Part shown: piece by piece, positions 2,622 to 26,977 of the stretch | Layout of the letters: each line of letters opens with the position of its first letter | How positions within the stretch are numbered: the first letter of the stretch is position 1 | Virus record (IMG/VR): IMGVR_UViG_3300027770_001980 | Span: 124,001-188,000 of that record | DNA length: 64,000 nucleotides | From: a virus | Reading direction: 5' to 3' (one strand) | Notes under the pieces: model-generated | What the model was told of the DNA's origin: nothing | Database searches by the model: none | Seen by the model: the letters and a program-made list of their open reading frames with translations, nothing else | Program-made: the position numbers and the translations under genes

Positions 2622-5600
2622 TTAACCTTCACCCCAACCGTTATTATTTGGTAGCGGTGGTAATCCTAATCTTGCTCTAACTGCTGGGTTGGTTCCACTG
2701 TATGATAGTGCGGTTGGATCTTTACCAATCACCGACTCAACCGGGTTAGGTGTTGATAATGAGTTACTTCCAAATTTAGCAGCAACTGATCCCAACGAGC
2801 TTGCATCTGGTATTTTTACTTGTCCTGTTATATTGGATAATTGATCTTTGGCTGAATTTATTTTATCACTAATAGCACTTGTATCAATCGAATTTGTTAA
2901 TCCTTTAAGTTTATCAAACGGATTTAGACTTAGGTTAGATACCTGTTGTTTAGCCGATGCGATTAACTCACCCGGTACTACGTTAGTTGACAATTTACTA
3001 ATTGACGAGACCCCATATAAATCTGCAAGGGCTGCTGGACCACGCTGTTTAATAACAGACTTGGCATAATCAAGATCCACCTGAGGAGCAGGAGCGGTAC
3101 TATACGGAGGTGTAGCAGGTATGTTTTGTATTTTACTGGCAGATATATAATCTAATACTAATCCAGAATCTGCAGCTTGTTTTAAATTTACATTTGAAGG
3201 AACATTATCAATCATTTGTTTAACCTGACTTGGTAATTTACTTTGAAGTGCGCCACCTAATCCTGATAATTTTGAAGTATCTAATCCCACTTTAGCAGCA
3301 ATGCTACTTGGATCAGCCGGCAATGCACGTAAAGCATTTACCTTATCACCAATACCACCAACCAATCCAGCAGCTTCGGTTTTTATATTAGATAATTTAT
3401 CAAGTGCTGCGGCTCCAAATGACTTTGTATCAGTTATGTTACTAACACTGGCAGCTGGTAATTTTAAATTATCAACTGCACTGTCAATTGATACAGTAGC
3501 ACCCTTACCTATGCCTGATCCAATATTAGGTATATTGCGAGCTGACTCAATAGCAGAGCTTAATAGAGATCCACCTATTAATCCCACAGCCCTTTGTATA
3601 GGCAATCCACCGGTTAATACATTAGACGCTATTGTTAGATACGGAGAAGTAGGTGCAACTTTTTCTAATGATTGTTGTGTGTATATTTGTGTTAGCCCCG
3701 ACGACTGCAATCTTACATTTGATGCAATACTATCAGGCGTCTGTAATCTAATATCCGATGTAACATTACCCACATCGGGTAAAGACTGACCTACTATAGA
3801 AGATGCAGATATAGGACTATCAATATTAGCAACTGCTCCCATAGTCTGATTTAATAAAGAAGGATTAGTCATACCGGTTCCGTATCCACCACTACCGGCT
3901 GCAACAGCACTATTTAGAGATTCTATTTCCCCTATTGTCATTCCTGATTCAGATTCTATAGTTCCACCTAATCCACCGGTAGCATCAGTGAAGTTTGTAT
4001 CAATGTCAGGAAGTCCCCTACCTAACTGTTCTGCCAATGTATTTGAATCTGCCCTTTGTGATGGGCTTAGTGCTCGAGTTTGATTGGGTACTACTTGGTC
4101 TTCTGGTTTTGGGGTAGACGATCTTAGATCGGCAGGATCACTGTCTCGAAGGTTAGAATCCAATACCTGACCCGGCATTCTCATTATATCTAACTTTTGA
4201 GAAAATACACCATCTTTGAATGTGCTGGTTACTTCATTAACTTGATATACTCCACTAAATGGTACTCGATTTCCATCAAAATTAAGCATTCCGCCATCTT
4301 CGAAACTATTATAATCAATAGGATTTCTAAAATTAATAGTGACTAATACAGAACCATATGTATGATCCACTTCTCCATCATCTGTAGTTCCGCGGGGGGC
4401 TTTTTCTTTTTTTGGTCTGTAATTTCCTATACCGCCTGTGGCAAGATAAAACGGATCTCCTAATATTTGCATCTCTCCAGTTACCATACTGGCTTTAGAA
4501 TTAATGACAGATTCGTGCATTTGTCTTGCCATGACACTATAAGGATCACTTTGTGGTTGTGCTGCCACTCCACCTGTGTAATTTTTTATAGTGGTAACTT
4601 CTACCTTAACGGGAGGTTTTGGCATTTCTGTTGCCGTCTTCGCTGGCGCCCTTGACTTATAGGCGGCCATATTTTCATCCTGTTCCTTAGTATTACTTTT
4701 TATCTCAACATTATTTGCAGGAGCTGCCCCGTCAATTGCACCTTTAGCGGTTTTATTACCCATATCAGCAGGTACTGCTTCAAAAAACAAAGTATTAAAA
4801 TTTAATTTAAAACTTAATACATCTGTATTCTGTCCTGTATAGATATAATTATATGTCCTGGTACTTGATTTTTTTAAGGTCTCTTCTTTTATATCCATTT
4901 GAGAATAACCAGGGATACGAGTATAATGAACCTTGTAAGGAACAACTAAAAATTTAAAGTGTTGATAATATTTTTTCGTGTCGGAGTTTTTTTCTTTTTT
5001 ATTTGTTGTTTCAACATTTATTATAAAATACTCAATAAAACCAAATTGATCAGGAATATTAGGATTTTTCTTTTTAGCGACAGATTCAATTATATCTTTA
5101 ACATATTCACTATCTTTAATAACAGATGTGATAGCATCATTAATTTTTAAACCTTGTGGAAAATTAACTACTGTTTTTCCAGGTATATATTTTATACTCT
5201 CGGGTTTCTTTGCTTGATCAGCAGGGGTTGGCTTTTCTGCTTTATCTGATTGATATCCATTTGGCTTTTTAGTATCTCCGGGCTCCGGCATTGAATATAA
5301 AATATTATCTTGAAGTATCTGATTTAATTTTTTATTTTTAATGGCTAAATTGGGAGGATTATCAACCAACTCTCCTTTTGCATTTCTACTTGGAAATACT
5401 ATCTCGTAGGTATCATAATCTTTTGGTTTTTCTTTTTTACTTTTATCATCTGATTCTTTTACCTGTTGATTCATGTTGGCAATGAAATTGTTTAAAATTT
5501 CTCCAATGGTGCTACCTTCCATCTTAATAGGTTTCTTAACTTCGGCAGGTTTTCCAAACGCCCTATCAGTTGATGCTGTAGCCTCACATTTATACCTTGT

Positions 5601-12979: not shown

Positions 12980-12987
12980 TATAAATA
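12980..12987 (+). promoter_or_regulatory. Late promoter, perfect TATAAATA
   Basis: An exact T4-type late box directly after the last hairpin of the gene-free segment. The ATG of the 723-residue protein follows 23 bases later with a weak AGGAC Shine-Dalgarno. Confidence 0.75.
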
Positions 12988-13010: not shown

Positions 13011-15182
13011 ATGGACATACGGCAATTAACTTCAAGATTAGATCGAATAGAAAATAATAGATTATATGAAGGTCTAACTCTGACTGAAGTAAAGTCAGTT
13101 AAGTTATGGGAGAACGCTGGCCGATTAATTAAAGAAGCAGCCCTAACTCCTGATCAAGTACAACAACTATTCACCAGTATAGAGCAAGGTGCAACTGCTG
13201 CTGGTGGCAATAGAACCATGATAGGCAAAGGTAAAGATGCTGCGTCTGCTGTTAACAAAGCATGGGAAGATCTAAAAACCAAAGTTCAAAACAGTGCTCC
13301 TATTGCAAATGTAGATTCTGCATATGATAGTGCTGTAGCCAAAATTGAAGCAGGGTTAGGTGGGCCTGACAATGCTGTTAATCAAGTTATTCAAAAGTAT
13401 AGAGCATTTGCCAAAGCACATCCAATTGCACAGGGGTTGATCTATTCAGCCCTTATTGCTGCTGCTGGTATCAGTGGAGCAGGATTAGGTGGGGCTGCTG
13501 TATTAGGTCTGTTAAAGATGACAGACAAGTTGCTGCAAGGTGAGAAGTTTTCCAGTGCTGCTTATAGTGGTGCTAAGACCGGTGCAATGGCATATGGTGC
13601 AAGTCAGATTGGAAAAGCATTGAAAGGTGGGGATAACGCAGGTAATAGCGGACCTCATCCTAAAGGTGATACAGCAGCAGGTGGAACTGACTCTTCGAGT
13701 TATTCTCATACTGTAGGGGAGATTAATCCTAAAACCGGTCAACAACTATATTCAATAAATCAGGATGGAACTTATGATTATGGTCCTCCGGGGCTAAGTG
13801 ATGATCAATGGTTAGATTTAAAAAATCAGGCTCGACATCAACTTAGCGGTGGCGGAGACTCAGGAGCGGATCAGGCTGTTTCTGCAAAGGCCAACATGGC
13901 TTCACACCGAGGAGCAGCAAGCGGTGACATGAAGCCCGGTGACTACCAGAATATGCCAAAAGGATATAACCAACAAGCATATGATGAATATTTAAAATCA
14001 CATCCACCCATTGGTAATAGTATCCAAGCAAAAATGATTGCAAAAGACATGGCGATGCGGCATGCTAAAGAGCAGGGATTTGATCAGGCTGTTTCTGCAA
14101 AGGCCAACATGGCTTCTGGAAATACCGCAAACCTCAGTCAGGACCAAGTTGCTGCAATGGATGGTGGAGACAATCCATTAGGTATAACTGCAAGACCAAG
14201 TATAAACAATGTAGATCAACCAGGATCAGTTGATGTTCCGGGTAGTGATAATCCATTAGGTATAACTGCAAGACCAAGTATAAACAATGTAGATCAACCA
14301 GGATCAGTTGATGTTCCGGGTAGTGATAATCCATTAGGTATAACTGCAAGACCAAGTATAAACAATGTAGATCAACCAGGATCAGTTGATCTTCCGAGTG
14401 ACAACCCATTGGGCATAACTGCAAGACCGTCGATGAATGTAGCACCTGGTGACTTTCCACCTGCAGCCGATACAGCAATTAATCGTCTAACTGGCAAACC
14501 GTTTACTAACTTTAAAGCACCATCGTGGACTGACATGTCTCCCGAACAACAGGCGGCTTTTACTCTTAAACAGCAAGCACAGGCCGCCGACGCTGCCCAA
14601 GCAGCACAAAATGCCAAAGATTATTGGGCCAACAAGTCTCCTTTAACACGCGGTTTAAAAGAAGGTGTTCAATTATCTGAAAGACAACTTGCCACATTAT
14701 TCACATTGATTCAGATTAAAAATCGTCAAGTCAATGAAGGCATGTGGGATAGTATCAAAGGTGCTGCAGGAAAAGCAGCAGGTGCAGTAGCTGATAAAGC
14801 CGCAACGGTTGGTAAGAATTTAACCACTAAAATCACCGCAGACAAATTAAACTCAGCATGGAAGAAAGCCGGTAGCCCAACAGACAGTGAGCAAGTAGCA
14901 CAGGTGATTCAAGGTGCCGGTGCAGATCCAGCATTGGTTTCAAAAGCCTTTACAGATTTAGGAATTCCTGCACCGACTGGTGAGATACAAGATCCTCCGA
15001 TGTCCAAAAATGATAAAGCAGCACCAGGAACCGATACAGCCGCAGCAGGACAACCGGATGAATTAGATGCAGTTAAAAAAAATGCAGGACTTCCTGTAGT
15101 AAATATCAAAGATCTGCTTGTACAGATAATGGCTTTATCCCCCGAAGAACAAAAGCAAGTATTAGAATACTTAAAGAAATAA
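13011..15182 (+). CDS. Large low-complexity protein, possible internal virion protein
   Basis: A 723-residue protein I cannot assign to a T4 gene. Residues about 1-120 are helical and polar, about 140-200 form an Ala/Gly-rich hydrophobic stretch (LIYSALIAAAGISGAGLGG), and about 210-520 are low-complexity with two kinds of internal repeat. Residues about 545-640 partly repeat the N-terminal pattern: LTPDQVQQLFTSIEQ against LSERQLATLFTLIQI, each followed by a Lys/Ala-rich helix. The C terminus has QPDELDAVKKNAGLP, shared with the next gene. It sits between the recombination and tail genes under a perfect late promoter, so it is a late, probably structural product. Internal head protein or ejected protein is a guess from composition. 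Confidence 0.6.
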   Translation: MDIRQLTSRLDRIENNRLYEGLTLTEVKSVKLWENAGRLIKEAALTPDQVQQLFTSIEQGATAAGGNRTMIGKGKDAASAVNKAWEDLKTKVQNSAPIANVDSAYDSAVAKIEAGLGGPDNAVNQVIQKYRAFAKAHPIAQGLIYSALIAAAGISGAGLGGAAVLGLLKMTDKLLQGEKFSSAAYSGAKTGAMAYGASQIGKALKGGDNAGNSGPHPKGDTAAGGTDSSSYSHTVGEINPKTGQQLYSINQDGTYDYGPPGLSDDQWLDLKNQARHQLSGGGDSGADQAVSAKANMASHRGAASGDMKPGDYQNMPKGYNQQAYDEYLKSHPPIGNSIQAKMIAKDMAMRHAKEQGFDQAVSAKANMASGNTANLSQDQVAAMDGGDNPLGITARPSINNVDQPGSVDVPGSDNPLGITARPSINNVDQPGSVDVPGSDNPLGITARPSINNVDQPGSVDLPSDNPLGITARPSMNVAPGDFPPAADTAINRLTGKPFTNFKAPSWTDMSPEQQAAFTLKQQAQAADAAQAAQNAKDYWANKSPLTRGLKEGVQLSERQLATLFTLIQIKNRQVNEGMWDSIKGAAGKAAGAVADKAATVGKNLTTKITADKLNSAWKKAGSPTDSEQVAQVIQGAGADPALVSKAFTDLGIPAPTGEIQDPPMSKNDKAAPGTDTAAAGQPDELDAVKKNAGLPVVNIKDLLVQIMALSPEEQKQVLEYLKK
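13869..14116 (+). repeat. Pair of identical 35-base direct repeats
   Basis: The 35 bases at 13869-13903 recur exactly at 14082-14116, in frame, 71 codons apart. Both encode DQAVSAKANMAS within the 723-residue protein. Confidence 0.85.
14169..14453 (+). repeat. Tandem 78-base coding repeats (3 full, 1 partial)
   Basis: Units start at 14169, 14247, 14325 and 14400. Each encodes DNPLGITARPSINNVDQPGS plus a VDVPGS-like tail. The first three are nearly identical at DNA level; the third is one codon shorter and the fourth is truncated and diverged. Confidence 0.9.
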
Positions 15183-15193
15183 TAGGAACCCAT

Positions 15194-16429
15194 ATGAAAA
15201 TTTCTCAACTCGTTACGACTAAAACAAAAACTCCATATCATGAAAGTGTAGCCGGAAGATTACCAAGGGGTATTAAATCTCAGCAACAACTGTTAAATCT
15301 TGGATACAGGATTGCGGTTGAAGATCTTGGATTAACAAAAGCAAAAACATTAAATGAAAACTTTGCCATCAAATTAATTAATTCATATCATACTCAATGT
15401 TTAAATGAAGGTATTGGGTCATTCTTAGGTAAAGCAGCAGGGCATGTTGTAGGAGCAGTAGGTGCTGCCGGTCGTGGAATTAAAGGAGCATGGGACGATG
15501 CTAAACAAGGGTATCAACAAGGTAAAGCATGGTGGGGAAGCGGAGAAGGTCCAACAGCAAGTGGAGCAGCACCAGCCGCAGGTGGAGCAGCACCGGCAGC
15601 AGGTGGAGCAGCACCGGCAGCAGGTAGTCCTACTACAACTACATTAACCAATCCAGGTAATAATAACGCACCGGGTGGATCGGCGGAACCGGAAGCCGCA
15701 CCTTCACCGGGCGGCGCAACACCAACACCACCGGCAGCAGGAACACCTCCAACTACAGGTGGTAAAGGTGTAGGTGACATCATGAAAGCTATTGATGGAT
15801 TAGATCCTGCAAGTAAAAAACAATTAGCAGGTGAATTAGATAAAAGTATCAAAGCAGCACCACCAGCAGGTGCTGCACCAGCAGGAGCAGAAGATCCTAA
15901 TAGTGGTACCAAGACTGGCACAACAAATCCAGGTGACTGGGCAGCAGATGGAAGAGATGCCTCGGCAGCAGATCATGCAACACCGGCAAATGTAAAACCA
16001 GCAGCAGGTGGAACAACACCTCAGCCAGACGAATTAGATGCTGTTAAAAAGAATGCAGGACTTCCAACAGGCGCAACTACACCAGCAGCAGGCGCAACTA
16101 CACCAGCAGCACCCGGAGCAACTCCACCAGCAGCACCCGGAGCAACTCCACCAGCAGCAAAAGCACCTGTAACAGGAACATCAGGTGGAGCAGGTAAAAG
16201 TATGATGGACTTAAAAGGTGCCGGCGTTAGCAATGCTTCACAATTAGCTAATCTACAAAAAACTGGAGCAGCAAATTTAGCAGCGGAAAAAGGAGCGGCA
16301 AATATGAACATACAGAAACCAACTTTTGCTGCTGATAAAAGAACTCCTGCCCAAATAGCTAAAATGAAACAAGCCGGATTTAGAGAAGAAGTTGAATTCC
16401 ACAGCAACTTCCTCGGTCGGAAGATTTAA
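15194..16429 (+). CDS. Ala/Pro/Gly-rich protein, possible internal virion protein
   Basis: A 411-residue protein of unknown function. Residues about 1-75 are ordered-looking and basic, followed by an amphipathic helix region (FLGKAAGHVVGAVGAAGRG). Residues about 115-340 are low-complexity with GGAAPAA and PGATPPA repeats. The C-terminal 70 residues regain normal composition (AQIAKMKQAGFREEVEF). It shares QPDELDAVKKNAGLP with the preceding protein, and both have an NEG sequence before a Gly/Ala/Lys helix, so they look related in part. An AGGA Shine-Dalgarno precedes the ATG, 11 bases after the previous stop. Its stop meets the stop of a minus-strand gene. Confidence 0.6.
   Translation: MKISQLVTTKTKTPYHESVAGRLPRGIKSQQQLLNLGYRIAVEDLGLTKAKTLNENFAIKLINSYHTQCLNEGIGSFLGKAAGHVVGAVGAAGRGIKGAWDDAKQGYQQGKAWWGSGEGPTASGAAPAAGGAAPAAGGAAPAAGSPTTTTLTNPGNNNAPGGSAEPEAAPSPGGATPTPPAAGTPPTTGGKGVGDIMKAIDGLDPASKKQLAGELDKSIKAAPPAGAAPAGAEDPNSGTKTGTTNPGDWAADGRDASAADHATPANVKPAAGGTTPQPDELDAVKKNAGLPTGATTPAAGATTPAAPGATPPAAPGATPPAAKAPVTGTSGGAGKSMMDLKGAGVSNASQLANLQKTGAANLAAEKGAANMNIQKPTFAADKRTPAQIAKMKQAGFREEVEFHSNFLGRKI
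15556..16156 (+). repeat. Low-complexity coding repeats (GGAAPAA and PGATPPA)
   Basis: Two clusters of short near-identical units lie in the Ala/Pro-rich gene: about 15556-15625 (GGAAPAA type) and about 16070-16156 (GATTPAA and PGATPPA types). Confidence 0.75.
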
Positions 16430-16644
16430 AAGAACGGCATCTGGGAAGTCTTTGTAATTTCCAGATTTTCTTCAATTATTTTTGCGATAATTTCTCTGTC
16501 TTCTGGGCACAGGAGATAGGCTTCACTTATTGAGATACTTCCTCTCATGTACCAACAGATTCTAAATAAAAGATCTTTTAAGGCTTTTGAATCTCGTTCG
16601 TATTCTTGACTTAGAGCATCAATGCCCGCTATATCAAGATTCAA
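16426..16644 (-). CDS. Small protein in -1 frame to gp26-like gene; candidate tape-measure chaperone extension
   Basis: A 72-residue protein reading NLDIAGIDALSQEYERDSKA and ending DREIIAKIIEENLEITKTSQ plus MPFF. Read alone it must use a TTG start at 16644. Its frame is open without interruption back into the end of the gp26-like gene, joined by a T-TTT-TTC heptamer at about 16656-16662. A -1 shift there would make a fusion of about 370 residues. This copies the G/GT arrangement of lambda-type tape-measure chaperones. The tape measure gene itself starts 1 kb away on the other strand. A stand-alone protein cannot be excluded. Confidence 0.7.
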   Translation of the reverse strand: MNLDIAGIDALSQEYERDSKALKDLLFRICWYMRGSISISEAYLLCPEDREIIAKIIEENLEITKTSQMPFF

Positions 16645-16649
16645 AAGCC

Positions 16650-16662
16650 TTATACGAAAAAA
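16650..16662 (-). other. Candidate programmed -1 ribosomal frameshift site
   Basis: The minus strand reads ACT TTT TTC GTA TAA in the gp26 frame. T-TTT-TTC fits the X-XXY-YYZ slippery rule, and two codons later the zero frame ends. The -1 frame continues without a stop through the 72-residue gene. Confidence 0.6.
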
Positions 16663-17537
16663 GTTGTAGGATCAAATACTAAAGGAACTTCAAGGGTTTC
16701 ACCTTTAAATCCTTTTTCTCTCATTTCCTCAGTAACTTGAATTGTTAACGGTTTAAGTGTATTAATTTCTTTTAATGCTTCGAGATGTTTTTGTACAACT
16801 GTGAATATTTCTTTATCTACATTATCCACAAACTCTTGTATGAAAAAAGGATCATCGGTACTACCCTCACTACTATCAACTTTAAAAATAGACGATCTAA
16901 CTATTCCGATAGTTACTTCGGTAAGTTTATTAAAACTTTTATTAAAGGCTTCTAATTTGTTTTCATCTGTGGCATTTTCATCATTGACTATCTGCATGAT
17001 TTTTTGAGTTTCAAATGCTTTTAATGCATTTTCACTTACTACCTTATAGTTTAAAGGACGAACAAATACTGTTAGATCTTCGGTAATTGGTACAACTGGA
17101 TCCCATGTGACCTGTTGTTGATATGCATCCATTACTAATCTCAAGTCAACATCATAGTTCAATGTTAACTCATCATCGCCTTCGCCAAAATTAACTGGAG
17201 TATCCATCTTTTCACCATATGTAGCCATGCGTACAGCTATTAACAGATAGTCAAGATCGATGCTGGGTGTCATCCAAGCATTTTTTATATTAGGAATACA
17301 ATGCTGTAATACATCGACAACTGCTTGCCCTGTCATTACCGCATCGGGAATTTTTAGCATAAGTTCATCTTTGGCAGTCATTGAGTATACAGGATATTCA
17401 CCTGTTTCGGATATTTCTAAACTACCCTCTGGCCAATATTGTCCTTCACTGGGAAACCTGATGTAGATTTTAGGCTGTCTCATAAATGACGCTAAAGGAT
17501 TTTGCTTCTTAGGAATAGTTGGTGATGATGTTTTCAT
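16650..17537 (-). CDS. gp26: gp26-like baseplate hub assembly protein
   Basis: A 295-residue protein with a central acidic alpha/beta domain (YIRFPSEGQYWPEGSLEISE near residue 26; MTPSIDLDYLLIAVRMATYG near 90). It resembles the gp26 family of T4-like aquatic phages. T4 gp26 (208 residues) acts in hub assembly together with the tape measure gp29. The gene starts with GGAG seven to eight bases before ATG and has a TATAAATA late box 42 bases upstream on the minus strand. It is divergent from the tape measure gene. The last codons ACT TTT TTC GTA TAA contain a perfect slippery heptamer, discussed under the next gene. Confidence 0.72.
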   Translation of the reverse strand: MKTSSPTIPKKQNPLASFMRQPKIYIRFPSEGQYWPEGSLEISETGEYPVYSMTAKDELMLKIPDAVMTGQAVVDVLQHCIPNIKNAWMTPSIDLDYLLIAVRMATYGEKMDTPVNFGEGDDELTLNYDVDLRLVMDAYQQQVTWDPVVPITEDLTVFVRPLNYKVVSENALKAFETQKIMQIVNDENATDENKLEAFNKSFNKLTEVTIGIVRSSIFKVDSSEGSTDDPFFIQEFVDNVDKEIFTVVQKHLEALKEINTLKPLTIQVTEEMREKGFKGETLEVPLVFDPTTFFV

Positions 17538-17578: not shown

Positions 17579-17586
17579 TATTTATA
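17579..17586 (-). promoter_or_regulatory. Late promoter, perfect TATAAATA, for the gp26-like gene
   Basis: TATAAATA reads on the minus strand 41 bases before the ATG at 17537. Because the plus-strand box lies to its left, the 5' ends of the two transcripts should overlap by about 20-30 bases. Confidence 0.65.
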
Positions 17587-17610: not shown

Positions 17611-20340
17611 ATGTCTGATGTAACCGGTTCGATTGGAAATCAAGCAGTAGAGCTAAAAAATGCCGCCACGGAGGCCACGCTCAAGTTATTACTGCAAAAT
17701 ATGTCCACCAGTAATAGGCAAATAGCTGATGCTATTTCCAACATGGCAACTAAGGCAGGGTTAGATCCAACTAAAGTAGCAGGTGTTAATAAAGGACTTA
17801 CATCACTTACACAAGCCGGACAAGAAAGTGGCGGGGTATTAGGTGGATTGGGAACTTCTGCACAAGGTGGAGCAAGCTGGCTGAAAAAGATGAGCTTTTC
17901 AGTTGGAGTTGTTGATGGTGGACTTCAAAGGTTAGGTGGCGTTCTTGGCAACCTTGCACAGATAGCCGGTAGCGGCTCAATGAACATAAGTGAGTTTGGG
18001 GCCGCACTTAAAGGACTACCGCTGGTTGGTTGGTTCCTTGGGTTAGCTGGAGAATTATCAAAATTAAAAGAAGCCGAATTTAAAACATATCAAAATATCT
18101 CTCAAAGTGGTATTCAAATGGGTGGGTCATTAACTGGTCTGCGTCATGCTGCTATGGGCAGCATGATGACCTTGGATCAGCTTGGTGGTGTACTGAGAAA
18201 AAATTCTGAAACATTTACCAGAATGGGCGCAAACGCCGACGAAGGTGCTAAAAGATTTACACAAATGTCTGCACGGTTGGTAAGTTTAAACGACGGTGCT
18301 CTCATGAAGTTAGGACTCACAGGAGAGCAAGCTGCTAATGGGTTGGCGTCTTATATAGAAATGACCGGTGGTCTATCAAAAAGTGAACAACAAGATTCAA
18401 CTAAAACTGTTGCAAATACTGCAAAATATTTAGAACAACTTGATGCTTTAGCCGATATAACAGGTAAAAGCAAAGAGGAGATGGAAAAACAATTAAAAGA
18501 ACAAAGTAAAAATGCCGCATGGCAGGCTAAGTTAGCTACCATGACTCCTGAACAGAAAGAAAAAGCAATAGCAGGTATGGCTAAAGCATTGGCGCTTGGC
18601 GGTAAAGGAGCAGCAGATGCATTCCAATCTAAAGTCATGGGTGTTCCTCCTATTACTAAAGAAGCTAAAGCATTTACTGCTGTTATGGGAGAAACAAACA
18701 AATCTGTAATAGGCATGGCCAATGGAGTTAACGATTCATCACAAACTTTAGCAGATCAAAATAAACAGTATGCACAAGGACAGCAGGCTACTATTAAAGA
18801 TATGGGTAAAATGGGCGAACAACAAAGATTTTACATGATACAGCAAGGTGGTGCCGTTGGTGGTGTGATGCAAACAGTCGGGGAGGTTGCTCTTAAATCA
18901 AAAGACAAAACACTTGAAGAACTTAACCTTGATAGTGTTGCTGCTGAGAAAAAAAGACAATTAGAAGGAAGTGAAGCCGCCAGAGCAGCAGAAGCACAGA
19001 AAGCGTGGGTCGCGGTACAACAAGCATTATACGATGCATTAACTGGTTTAATGGGCGATCCCCAGGGCATATTAATGGAAGCTGCTCAAATTGCCCTTGG
19101 CATGATACAGTGGCTAACCAAATGGAAAAGCGAAATTATAACTCTTGTTAAAGTTATAGCCGGCGGCGCCGCAGTGATGACAGTGTTTTGGGCATTTATG
19201 AAAGCTAAAACCGCTATAGAAGCTGCACAGTCTTCAAAAGCAAGTGGAGGCGGATTATTAAAACAATTTAGTGCTGCTACTGGAGTAGGAGCAGGTGCAT
19301 TAGGATCAAACCCAAATAATCCAATGTGGGTTAAAGTTGTTGGTGGTGGCGCTTTAGGTGGGGGCGGTGCCGGTGGTAGAGGAGGTGCAGGGGGCGGCGG
19401 AGCCGGTGGTGGAGGAGGTCCGGGCATTGGTTCTAAGTTAGCCGAAGGATTGGGCGGCTTAGGAAAAGGTCTTCAAGGATTGCTTTCAGGTCTTGGAAAA
19501 GGTGCCGGGGAATTAATTAGAAGTATATTAACCGGATTAGGTAATGGGTTAGGTGCATTAGGAAAACCACAGGTGATGTTAGGTGCTGTTACATTAGGAT
19601 TGTTAGCGGCTGTATTGTGGGGAGCATCTAAAGCACTACAAAATTTTGCCACAATATCCTGGGAAGATATGGGAAAAGGATTTACCACGTTGCTGGGATT
19701 AGGAGCGTTGGCAGCAGTCTTAAGTTTTGCATCTCCTCTTATTATTGCTGGCTCGGTTGCTATTGGTGCAATGGGATTAGCACTAATCCCATTTGCTGTA
19801 GCGATGGCATTGGTTAGTGTATCGATGCCTACATTTACTGCCGGACTTACTGCAATGTCAACTATCAACGGTGTCGGCTTAGGTAAAGTTGCACTCGGAG
19901 CAGGTGCATTAGGTGGAGCACTTATTGCATGGGCACCGTTTGCTGTATTTGGTAGTGTTGCTGCAAGTGCGTTAACTCAGATGGCTGATAGTTTTGCAAA
20001 ACTTAGTACTGTAGATCCTGTTAAATTAGAAAAAGTAGCAGCAGCAATGCAAAAAGTTAAAGATGCAACACCTGGTATTGGCCAAGCAGTTGGTGGCGCT
20101 ATATCTGGATTTGCCAATAAATTAATTGGTACAAGTGAACCAGCACCGGCTGCCGCCGCAGCAAAATCGACACCCGCAGCAACTGATACAAGCAATCCAG
20201 CAAATGTTACAGTAACTGAACTAAGATCGTTAAATAAACAAATAACAGAAGTTTTGAAATTTATTAAAGAAACAGCTGATAATACTAAACAAACCGTGTC
20301 TGCTACTAAAGCACTCGACGGTAATAGATTTAAAAGGTAA
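17611..20340 (+). CDS. gp29: Tape measure protein, gp29-like
   Basis: A 909-residue protein in the position of the tail-length determinant, next to the gp26-like gene and the portal. Residues about 1-560 are largely helical and polar (QIADAISNMATKAGLDPTKV). Residues about 580-610 are almost pure Gly. Residues about 640-760 hold several hydrophobic segments (LGAVTLGLLAAVLWGASKAL, SPLIIAGSVAIGAMGLALIP) that could cross a membrane after ejection. The last 50 residues return to helix. T4 gp29 has 590 residues, so the tail may be longer, but gp29 is also chaperoned and its length rule here is untested. There is no Shine-Dalgarno close to the ATG. Confidence 0.75.
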   Translation: MSDVTGSIGNQAVELKNAATEATLKLLLQNMSTSNRQIADAISNMATKAGLDPTKVAGVNKGLTSLTQAGQESGGVLGGLGTSAQGGASWLKKMSFSVGVVDGGLQRLGGVLGNLAQIAGSGSMNISEFGAALKGLPLVGWFLGLAGELSKLKEAEFKTYQNISQSGIQMGGSLTGLRHAAMGSMMTLDQLGGVLRKNSETFTRMGANADEGAKRFTQMSARLVSLNDGALMKLGLTGEQAANGLASYIEMTGGLSKSEQQDSTKTVANTAKYLEQLDALADITGKSKEEMEKQLKEQSKNAAWQAKLATMTPEQKEKAIAGMAKALALGGKGAADAFQSKVMGVPPITKEAKAFTAVMGETNKSVIGMANGVNDSSQTLADQNKQYAQGQQATIKDMGKMGEQQRFYMIQQGGAVGGVMQTVGEVALKSKDKTLEELNLDSVAAEKKRQLEGSEAARAAEAQKAWVAVQQALYDALTGLMGDPQGILMEAAQIALGMIQWLTKWKSEIITLVKVIAGGAAVMTVFWAFMKAKTAIEAAQSSKASGGGLLKQFSAATGVGAGALGSNPNNPMWVKVVGGGALGGGGAGGRGGAGGGGAGGGGGPGIGSKLAEGLGGLGKGLQGLLSGLGKGAGELIRSILTGLGNGLGALGKPQVMLGAVTLGLLAAVLWGASKALQNFATISWEDMGKGFTTLLGLGALAAVLSFASPLIIAGSVAIGAMGLALIPFAVAMALVSVSMPTFTAGLTAMSTINGVGLGKVALGAGALGGALIAWAPFAVFGSVAASALTQMADSFAKLSTVDPVKLEKVAAAMQKVKDATPGIGQAVGGAISGFANKLIGTSEPAPAAAAAKSTPAATDTSNPANVTVTELRSLNKQITEVLKFIKETADNTKQTVSATKALDGNRFKR

Positions 20341-26969: not shown

Positions 26970-26977
26970 TATAAATA
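26970..26977 (+). promoter_or_regulatory. Late promoter, perfect TATAAATA, with structured leader
   Basis: It lies 85 bases before the ATG at 27063. The leader contains an inverted repeat (TAGTAGAT/AATCTACTA at about 27021-27040) and ends with a full AAGGAG Shine-Dalgarno. Confidence 0.8.

Follow-up and report, generated by a model that had tools for sequence, protein, structure and literature searches.

Downstream of a gene resembling T4 gene 26, on the minus strand of virus record IMGVR_UViG_3300027770_001980, lies a small open reading frame (ORF) in the -1 frame, and the question that this locus raises is whether the two are separate genes or whether ribosomes join them by a change of frame. 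The window, i.e. the stretch of DNA that was analysed, comprises 64,000 nucleotides of that record (positions 124,001 to 188,000). A sequence-only reading had proposed that a slippery heptamer at the end of the gp26-like gene joins it to the small ORF, and that the two chaperone forms of lambda-type tails, known as G and GT, would thereby be extended to this lineage, gp26 and gp51 being treated as separate genes in T4-like phages. On the basis of the comparative evidence described below, we consider it very probable (roughly 93%) that programmed -1 ribosomal frameshifting yields two forms of a tail-assembly chaperone here, TAC-N (short) and TAC-NC (long), following the lambda G/GT scheme. The features concerned are collected in Table 1.

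Table 1. Positions of the features discussed (window coordinates, except for the two genes on locus L225)
Feature	Position	Strand	Remarks
gp26-like gene, TAC-N short form, 295 aa	16650..17537	-	PF12322, PHROG 150, AlphaFold model
Slippery heptamer T_TTT_TTC	16656..16662	-	zero-frame codons TTT TTC, as AC[T TTT TTC] GTA TAA
-1-frame extension (putative TAC-C domain, 'T-like'), FFRIRLLNLDIAG...CWYMRGS...PFF	16426..16662	-	open and conserved, 117 loci
TTG called as start of 72-aa ORF	16642..16644	-	most likely no start codon
Stem-loop, 5' arm, TAAGGCTTTTGAATCTTG	16635..16652	-	3 nt past the heptamer
Stem-loop, 3' arm, CGAGATTCAAAAGCCTTA	16579..16596	-	folding and covariation
Second in-frame TTTTTTC inside gp26-like gene	16842..16848	-	non-conserved internal control
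TATAAATA, candidate T4-type late promoter	17579..17586	-	about 42 nt upstream of gp26-like ATG
TAC-N-like gene of the L112-L114 phage	L225 2495-3505		
Second gene, extension fused in frame	L225 3507-4523		follows the TAC-N-like gene

The gp26-like gene and its family

The gp26-like ORF is a member of family PF12322 (T4_baseplate; 32.4 bits against a curated cut-off of 24.5 in Pfam, E 9.8e-8) and also matches PHROG 150 (baseplate hub, E 2e-10). The best viral fold matches of an alignment-based AlphaFold model of the protein (pLDDT 85.6) were T4-like baseplate hub assembly proteins (E 1e-20); a single-sequence model was discarded (pLDDT 34). A Foldseek search of the model against the PDB returned no match at E <= 0.001 and therefore no solved relative of the gp26-like protein, a profile search of NCBIfam gave no hits and a search of Rfam gave a chance match only. 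In T4, gp26 and gp51 both belong to PF12322 and are paralogues, gp51 consisting of a gp26-like part plus about 48 residues, i.e. they are a short and a long form, in line with the two chaperone forms that had been proposed. A long form hard-wired in a single ORF, of the T4 gp51 type, was not found here: the extension lies in another frame, and the whole 221,356-bp virus record holds a single PF12322 gene.

In the BFVD database the model also matched (Foldseek, E about 1e-4 to 1e-6) uncharacterised proteins of 500-550 aa from phiKZ-like jumbo phages, among them A0A1L7N169 (Ralstonia RP12), A0A0K2QR08 (RSF1), A0A191ZCG4 (Erwinia Special G) and A0A7R8R5F3 (Eowyn). Judged from the modelled fold, it is possible that these proteins act as tail-assembly chaperones in those phages.

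A slippery heptamer conserved in phase

The zero-frame 3' end of the gp26-like ORF reads GAT CCT ACA ACT TTT TTC GTA TAA, its last five codons being those given by the sequence-only reading, and a heptamer of the form X_XXY_YYZ thus stands in the zero frame close to the stop codon. In a first survey the heptamer was present in all relatives that carry the extension, over a range of gp26 identity from 71% to 24%, at a variable distance from the stop codon. T_TTT_TTC was found in phase in 115 of 117 non-redundant loci of the jumbo lineage that carry the -1-frame domain, loci that share ancestry and so do not count as independent events, and the named phages with the heptamer in phase include Phosso, Atu_ph07, PA5oct, BF, RaK2, 121Q, XaC1 and Vibrio 2.275.O. 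Relatives that keep the overlap without a heptamer had been named beforehand as the observation that would speak against the proposal; the heptamer was kept where the overlap was kept (115 of 117 loci). The two loci without TTTTTTC are the L112-L114 phage, which has a duplication (see below), and L251, a single jumbo locus in which A_AAT_TTT replaces T_TTT_TTC (near 4288), either as another slippery heptamer of the X_XXY_YYZ type or through a one-base homopolymer or assembly error.

The conservation of the heptamer points to selection at the level of nucleotides, beyond that on the protein, because its phenylalanine codons are frozen, TTC is rare elsewhere, and the preceding T is constant though the residue changes. 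Among the 47 alignment columns with an invariant amino acid and a degenerate code (73 loci), only the two heptamer codons consist for 100% of one codon (TTT and then TTC), the median for an invariant column being 51%, and the share of TTC among the other phenylalanine codons of these genes is only about 20%. The codon that precedes TTT TTC always ends in T, its amino acid being Thr, Asn, Ser, Asp, His, Ala or Arg.

With 22 copies against an expectation of 20.7, bare TTTTTTC shows no enrichment in the window, which is AT-rich, and therefore its raw frequency is no evidence. This chance frequency is what could be cited for regarding the heptamer as a coincidence, a sequence error or part of a decaying gene, a reading that we find scarcely credible and that is ruled out by the comparative data, i.e. 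by the conservation of the phase in many assemblies and isolates and by the conservation of the protein encoded in the -1 frame. The second TTTTTTC of the gp26-like gene serves as an internal control, since it is not kept in relatives and its -1 frame runs into a stop after only 8 codons; the MFE of the sequence downstream of it is -7.6.

A covarying stem-loop downstream of the heptamer

The heptamer is followed, at the spacing usual for frameshift sites (3-6 nt), by an RNA stem-loop of 18 bp (MFE -28.3 kcal/mol, z -6.5), the invariant GGC core of its 5' arm beginning 6 nt past the heptamer. Across 58 relatives, 91.9% of the cells of a 13-pair stem were paired, versus 30-56% when the partner strand was slid by 1-3 columns. 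Changes on both sides of a pair were observed in 53 cells against 16.1 in shuffled alignments (none of the 500 shuffles reached 53), and one pair occurs as UA, AU, CG and GC. The two arms are also protein-coding, yet they covary. Support for the hairpin is weaker outside the close group: z lies below -2 in 97% of 37 close relatives, in 45% of the distant jumbo loci and in 52% of the cyanophages.

These observations also bear on transcriptional slippage, in which the RNA polymerase would add or remove a base on the run of six T and so generate a pool of -1-frame transcripts. The T run is indeed conserved along with the shift. This process, however, usually requires runs longer than six T, and slippage of the ribosome fits the conserved phase of T_TTT_TTC, the C that invariably follows the T run and the covarying stem-loop at 3-6 nt, which makes transcriptional slippage highly improbable.

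The -1 frame and the small open reading frame

The overlapping -1 frame contains no stop from a point 22 nt ahead of the end of the gp26-like stop codon until 16426, where it terminates. This amounts to 78 codons from the heptamer and 73 codons beyond the gp26-like stop, and the frame is conserved as coding sequence in the relatives. The sequence-only reading was right about the open frame; the 72-residue ORF itself, starting at TTG, is a mechanical call, and this TTG is not conserved. Several relatives have lost it and still preserve the pairing of the stem, as in the change from GC to AU at columns 21/77, and to judge from the alignment it is most likely not a start codon and conserved partly because it lies within the stem.

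The small ORF could also be a separate gene, translated from its own start at TTG 16644 or by termination and reinitiation at the gp26 stop. We regard this as very unlikely, even though a TTG is located 6 nt beyond the stop in many close relatives, an ATG directly follows the gp26 stop in cyanophages, where gp51 is annotated as a gene, and the small genes of 121Q and BF are annotated from an overlapping ATG. No conserved start codon was found: in 16 of 79 loci none of ATG, GTG and TTG occurs within the first 20 codons of the -1 frame, and the conserved strong start that had been named as a further observation against the proposal is therefore not there. Moreover, a conserved FFRxRL is encoded by the -1 frame ahead of TTG 16644, the conservation of the GGCTTTTG block is accounted for by its pairing with CAAAAGCC, and the frozen TTT TTC codons are not explained by reinitiation.

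By way of intermediates, the extension appears to be homologous to the C-terminal end of gp51-type proteins. A profile of the -1 extensions of smaller phages matched residues 195-245 of T4 gp51 (E 3.9e-9), spanning the junction, and did not match gp26, and the jumbo extension profile matched the small-phage extension profile in HHalign (83%, E 9e-6). A direct HHalign comparison of the jumbo extension with the C-terminus of T4 gp51 was not significant.

Proposed mechanism

In the frameshifting mechanism that we favour, most ribosomes on the gp26-like gene would terminate at TAA 16652-16650 and release the 295-aa TAC-N protein. A fraction would pause at the stem-loop 3-6 nt past the heptamer, where the tRNA-Phe molecules in the P- and A-site would re-pair from TTT TTC to TTT TTT. 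Reading on in the -1 frame would then yield the TAC-NC chaperone, about 370 aa long, in which a C-terminal domain of about 76 residues is added; at the sequence level the short and the long form share their N-terminal domain. By analogy with lambda gpG and gpGT, TAC-N would be expected to cover the tape measure protein, and TAC-NC to bring in subunits of the tail tube. We infer the slip itself, its efficiency and the chaperone function of the products from these sequence features.

Comparison with lambda, T4 and other T4-like phages

The slippery heptamer of lambda is G_GGA_AAG; the window differs from it in having U_UUU_UUC and a contractile, T4-like tail. A -1 frameshift at a U-run slippery site is found in phage P2, a contractile-tail phage, in which it yields E and E+E'; to our knowledge the P2 E proteins are unrelated to the gp26-like ones. 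In lambda, gpG is a short protein and gpGT a rarer -1 fusion that shares its N-terminal part (PMC5009743), and the window resembles lambda in that the C-terminal domain is encoded in an overlapping -1 frame (PMC5009743). A review of 2016 excepted T4 from the G/GT frameshift among the long-tailed phages (PMC5009743).

A scan of T4 gp26 and gp51 found no heptamer close to the end of either that is followed by an open -1 frame. T4 gp26 retains the pair of phenylalanines as TTC TTT, and therefore has no slippery site. T4 thus differs from the window in having two divergent genes and no slippery site near the end. It resembles the window in the PF12322 membership of both gp26 and gp51, and the C-terminal extension of gp51 is homologous to the -1 domain that occurs in other T4-like phages.

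Such a -1 domain was found in P-SSM5 and in some 55 non-redundant IMG/VR loci of the cyanophage and phiAS5 groups, in which gp26 ends in T_TTT_TTC at the same place as in the window and 'gp51' is the -1 extension of gp26. The same junction of gp26 and gp51 is present in phiAS5, Aeh1, Cronobacter S13, Rhizobium LG08, Delftia phiW-14, Stenotrophomonas Yut3 and Synechococcus BUCT-ZZ01, and variants of the heptamer occur in RL38J1 (T_TTT_TTG) and Vibrio vB_VmeM-32 (T_TTT_TTT). The cyanophages differ from the window by the ATG right after the gp26 stop, a shorter extension and a weaker hairpin. In cyanophage loci L132 and L139-L218 the gp51 ATG is located two bases past the gp26 stop, besides the heptamer, and judging from this layout cyanophage gp51 could be made by both frameshifting and reinitiation. 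A gp51-like domain in the -1 frame after gp26 was also seen without a canonical heptamer in Salmonella SFP10 (Ackermannviridae; L272 401-1207), Cygsa01 (L135 2072-2809) and Vibrio D506 (L273 383-1123), with ATT TTC or CTT TTC before the stop and, in two of these, a TAATG overlap.

Frameshifting is reportedly conserved in several T4-like groups, T4 itself using genes 26 and 51. As described in papers that cite it (PRFect, PMC10885494; Adele, PMC12846349), the study of Vladimirov et al. 2022 identified genes 26 and 51 as the chaperones of T4-like phages, with frameshifting in some groups and a short gene plus a fused long gene in others. According to these citing papers, gp26/51 frameshifting is as a kind already known, and the groups concerned resemble the window in the gp26 family, in having a short and a long form and in a slippery poly-T stretch that lies close to where the short form ends. 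The proposed extension of the G/GT scheme is therefore supported for the present lineage and had, for T4-like phages, already been published (Vladimirov et al. 2022, as cited). As far as the coverage of that study can be seen from the citing papers, the present locus differs in belonging to a jumbo lineage of the 121Q/RaK2/PA5oct/Atu_ph07 type (the window and its IMG/VR relatives), in a longer extension (about 76 aa, with a CWYMRGG motif in the close group) and in the covarying hairpin. The present analysis adds the occurrence in a jumbo lineage, a hairpin with covariation and, in the L112-L114 phage, a natural case in which the frameshift appears to have been replaced. In the literature searched, in which Vladimirov et al. 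is represented by citing papers, we found no description of the covarying hairpin or of this second duplication.

For annotation this means that the small 'hypothetical protein' or 'gp51' ORFs that follow gp26 in many phage records would have to be joined to gp26.

Probable replacement of the frameshift by gene duplication

Another finding concerns loci L112-L114, which represent one species from three samples (99.9% identical) in which both the heptamer and the hairpin are gone. This phage has two genes in succession, the first TAC-N-like and the second with the extension fused in frame (Table 1), the junction reading TCA CAA TTT AGA CAA AGA CTA. The same phage is also represented by L224, L225 and L226. 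In a phylogenetic tree both copies group within the jumbo clade and away from T4 gp26/gp51 (100/100), although each has a long branch of its own.

The comparisons suggest that the frameshift, with its conserved hairpin, very probably runs through the jumbo relatives of T4, and therefore the two-gene arrangement of T4 looks like a derived solution. We consider it fairly probable that duplication replaced the frameshift at least twice independently, once in T4 (26/51) and once in the L112-L114 phage within the jumbo lineage. Two replacements by duplication are what is expected if both chaperone forms are needed. If this is true, frameshifting versus duplication would, together with the covarying hairpin, amount to a replayed evolutionary experiment on how the chaperone ratio is set. 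The L112-L114 contigs with the fused gene offer a natural comparison regarding the long-to-short ratio needed in tail assembly.

Gene neighbourhood

The neighbouring ORF of 909 aa (17611-20340) matched no tape-measure family in profile searches of Pfam, PHROG and NCBIfam. Its counterpart in RaK2 is annotated as similar to tape measure, and it is this annotation of relatives that suggests a tape measure next to the putative chaperone gene.

The window contains four copies of TATAAATA, where 8.4 would be expected, and three of the four are located just upstream of ORFs (12980-12987 (+), 17579-17586 (-) and 26970-26977 (+)); by their position, these three are likely T4-type late promoters. Beside the putative chaperone gene, at 13011-16429 (+), we also observed two long ORFs that contain repeats and regions of low complexity, namely tandem DNPLGITARPSINNVDQPGSVDVPGS repeats and stretches rich in Ala, Pro and Gly.
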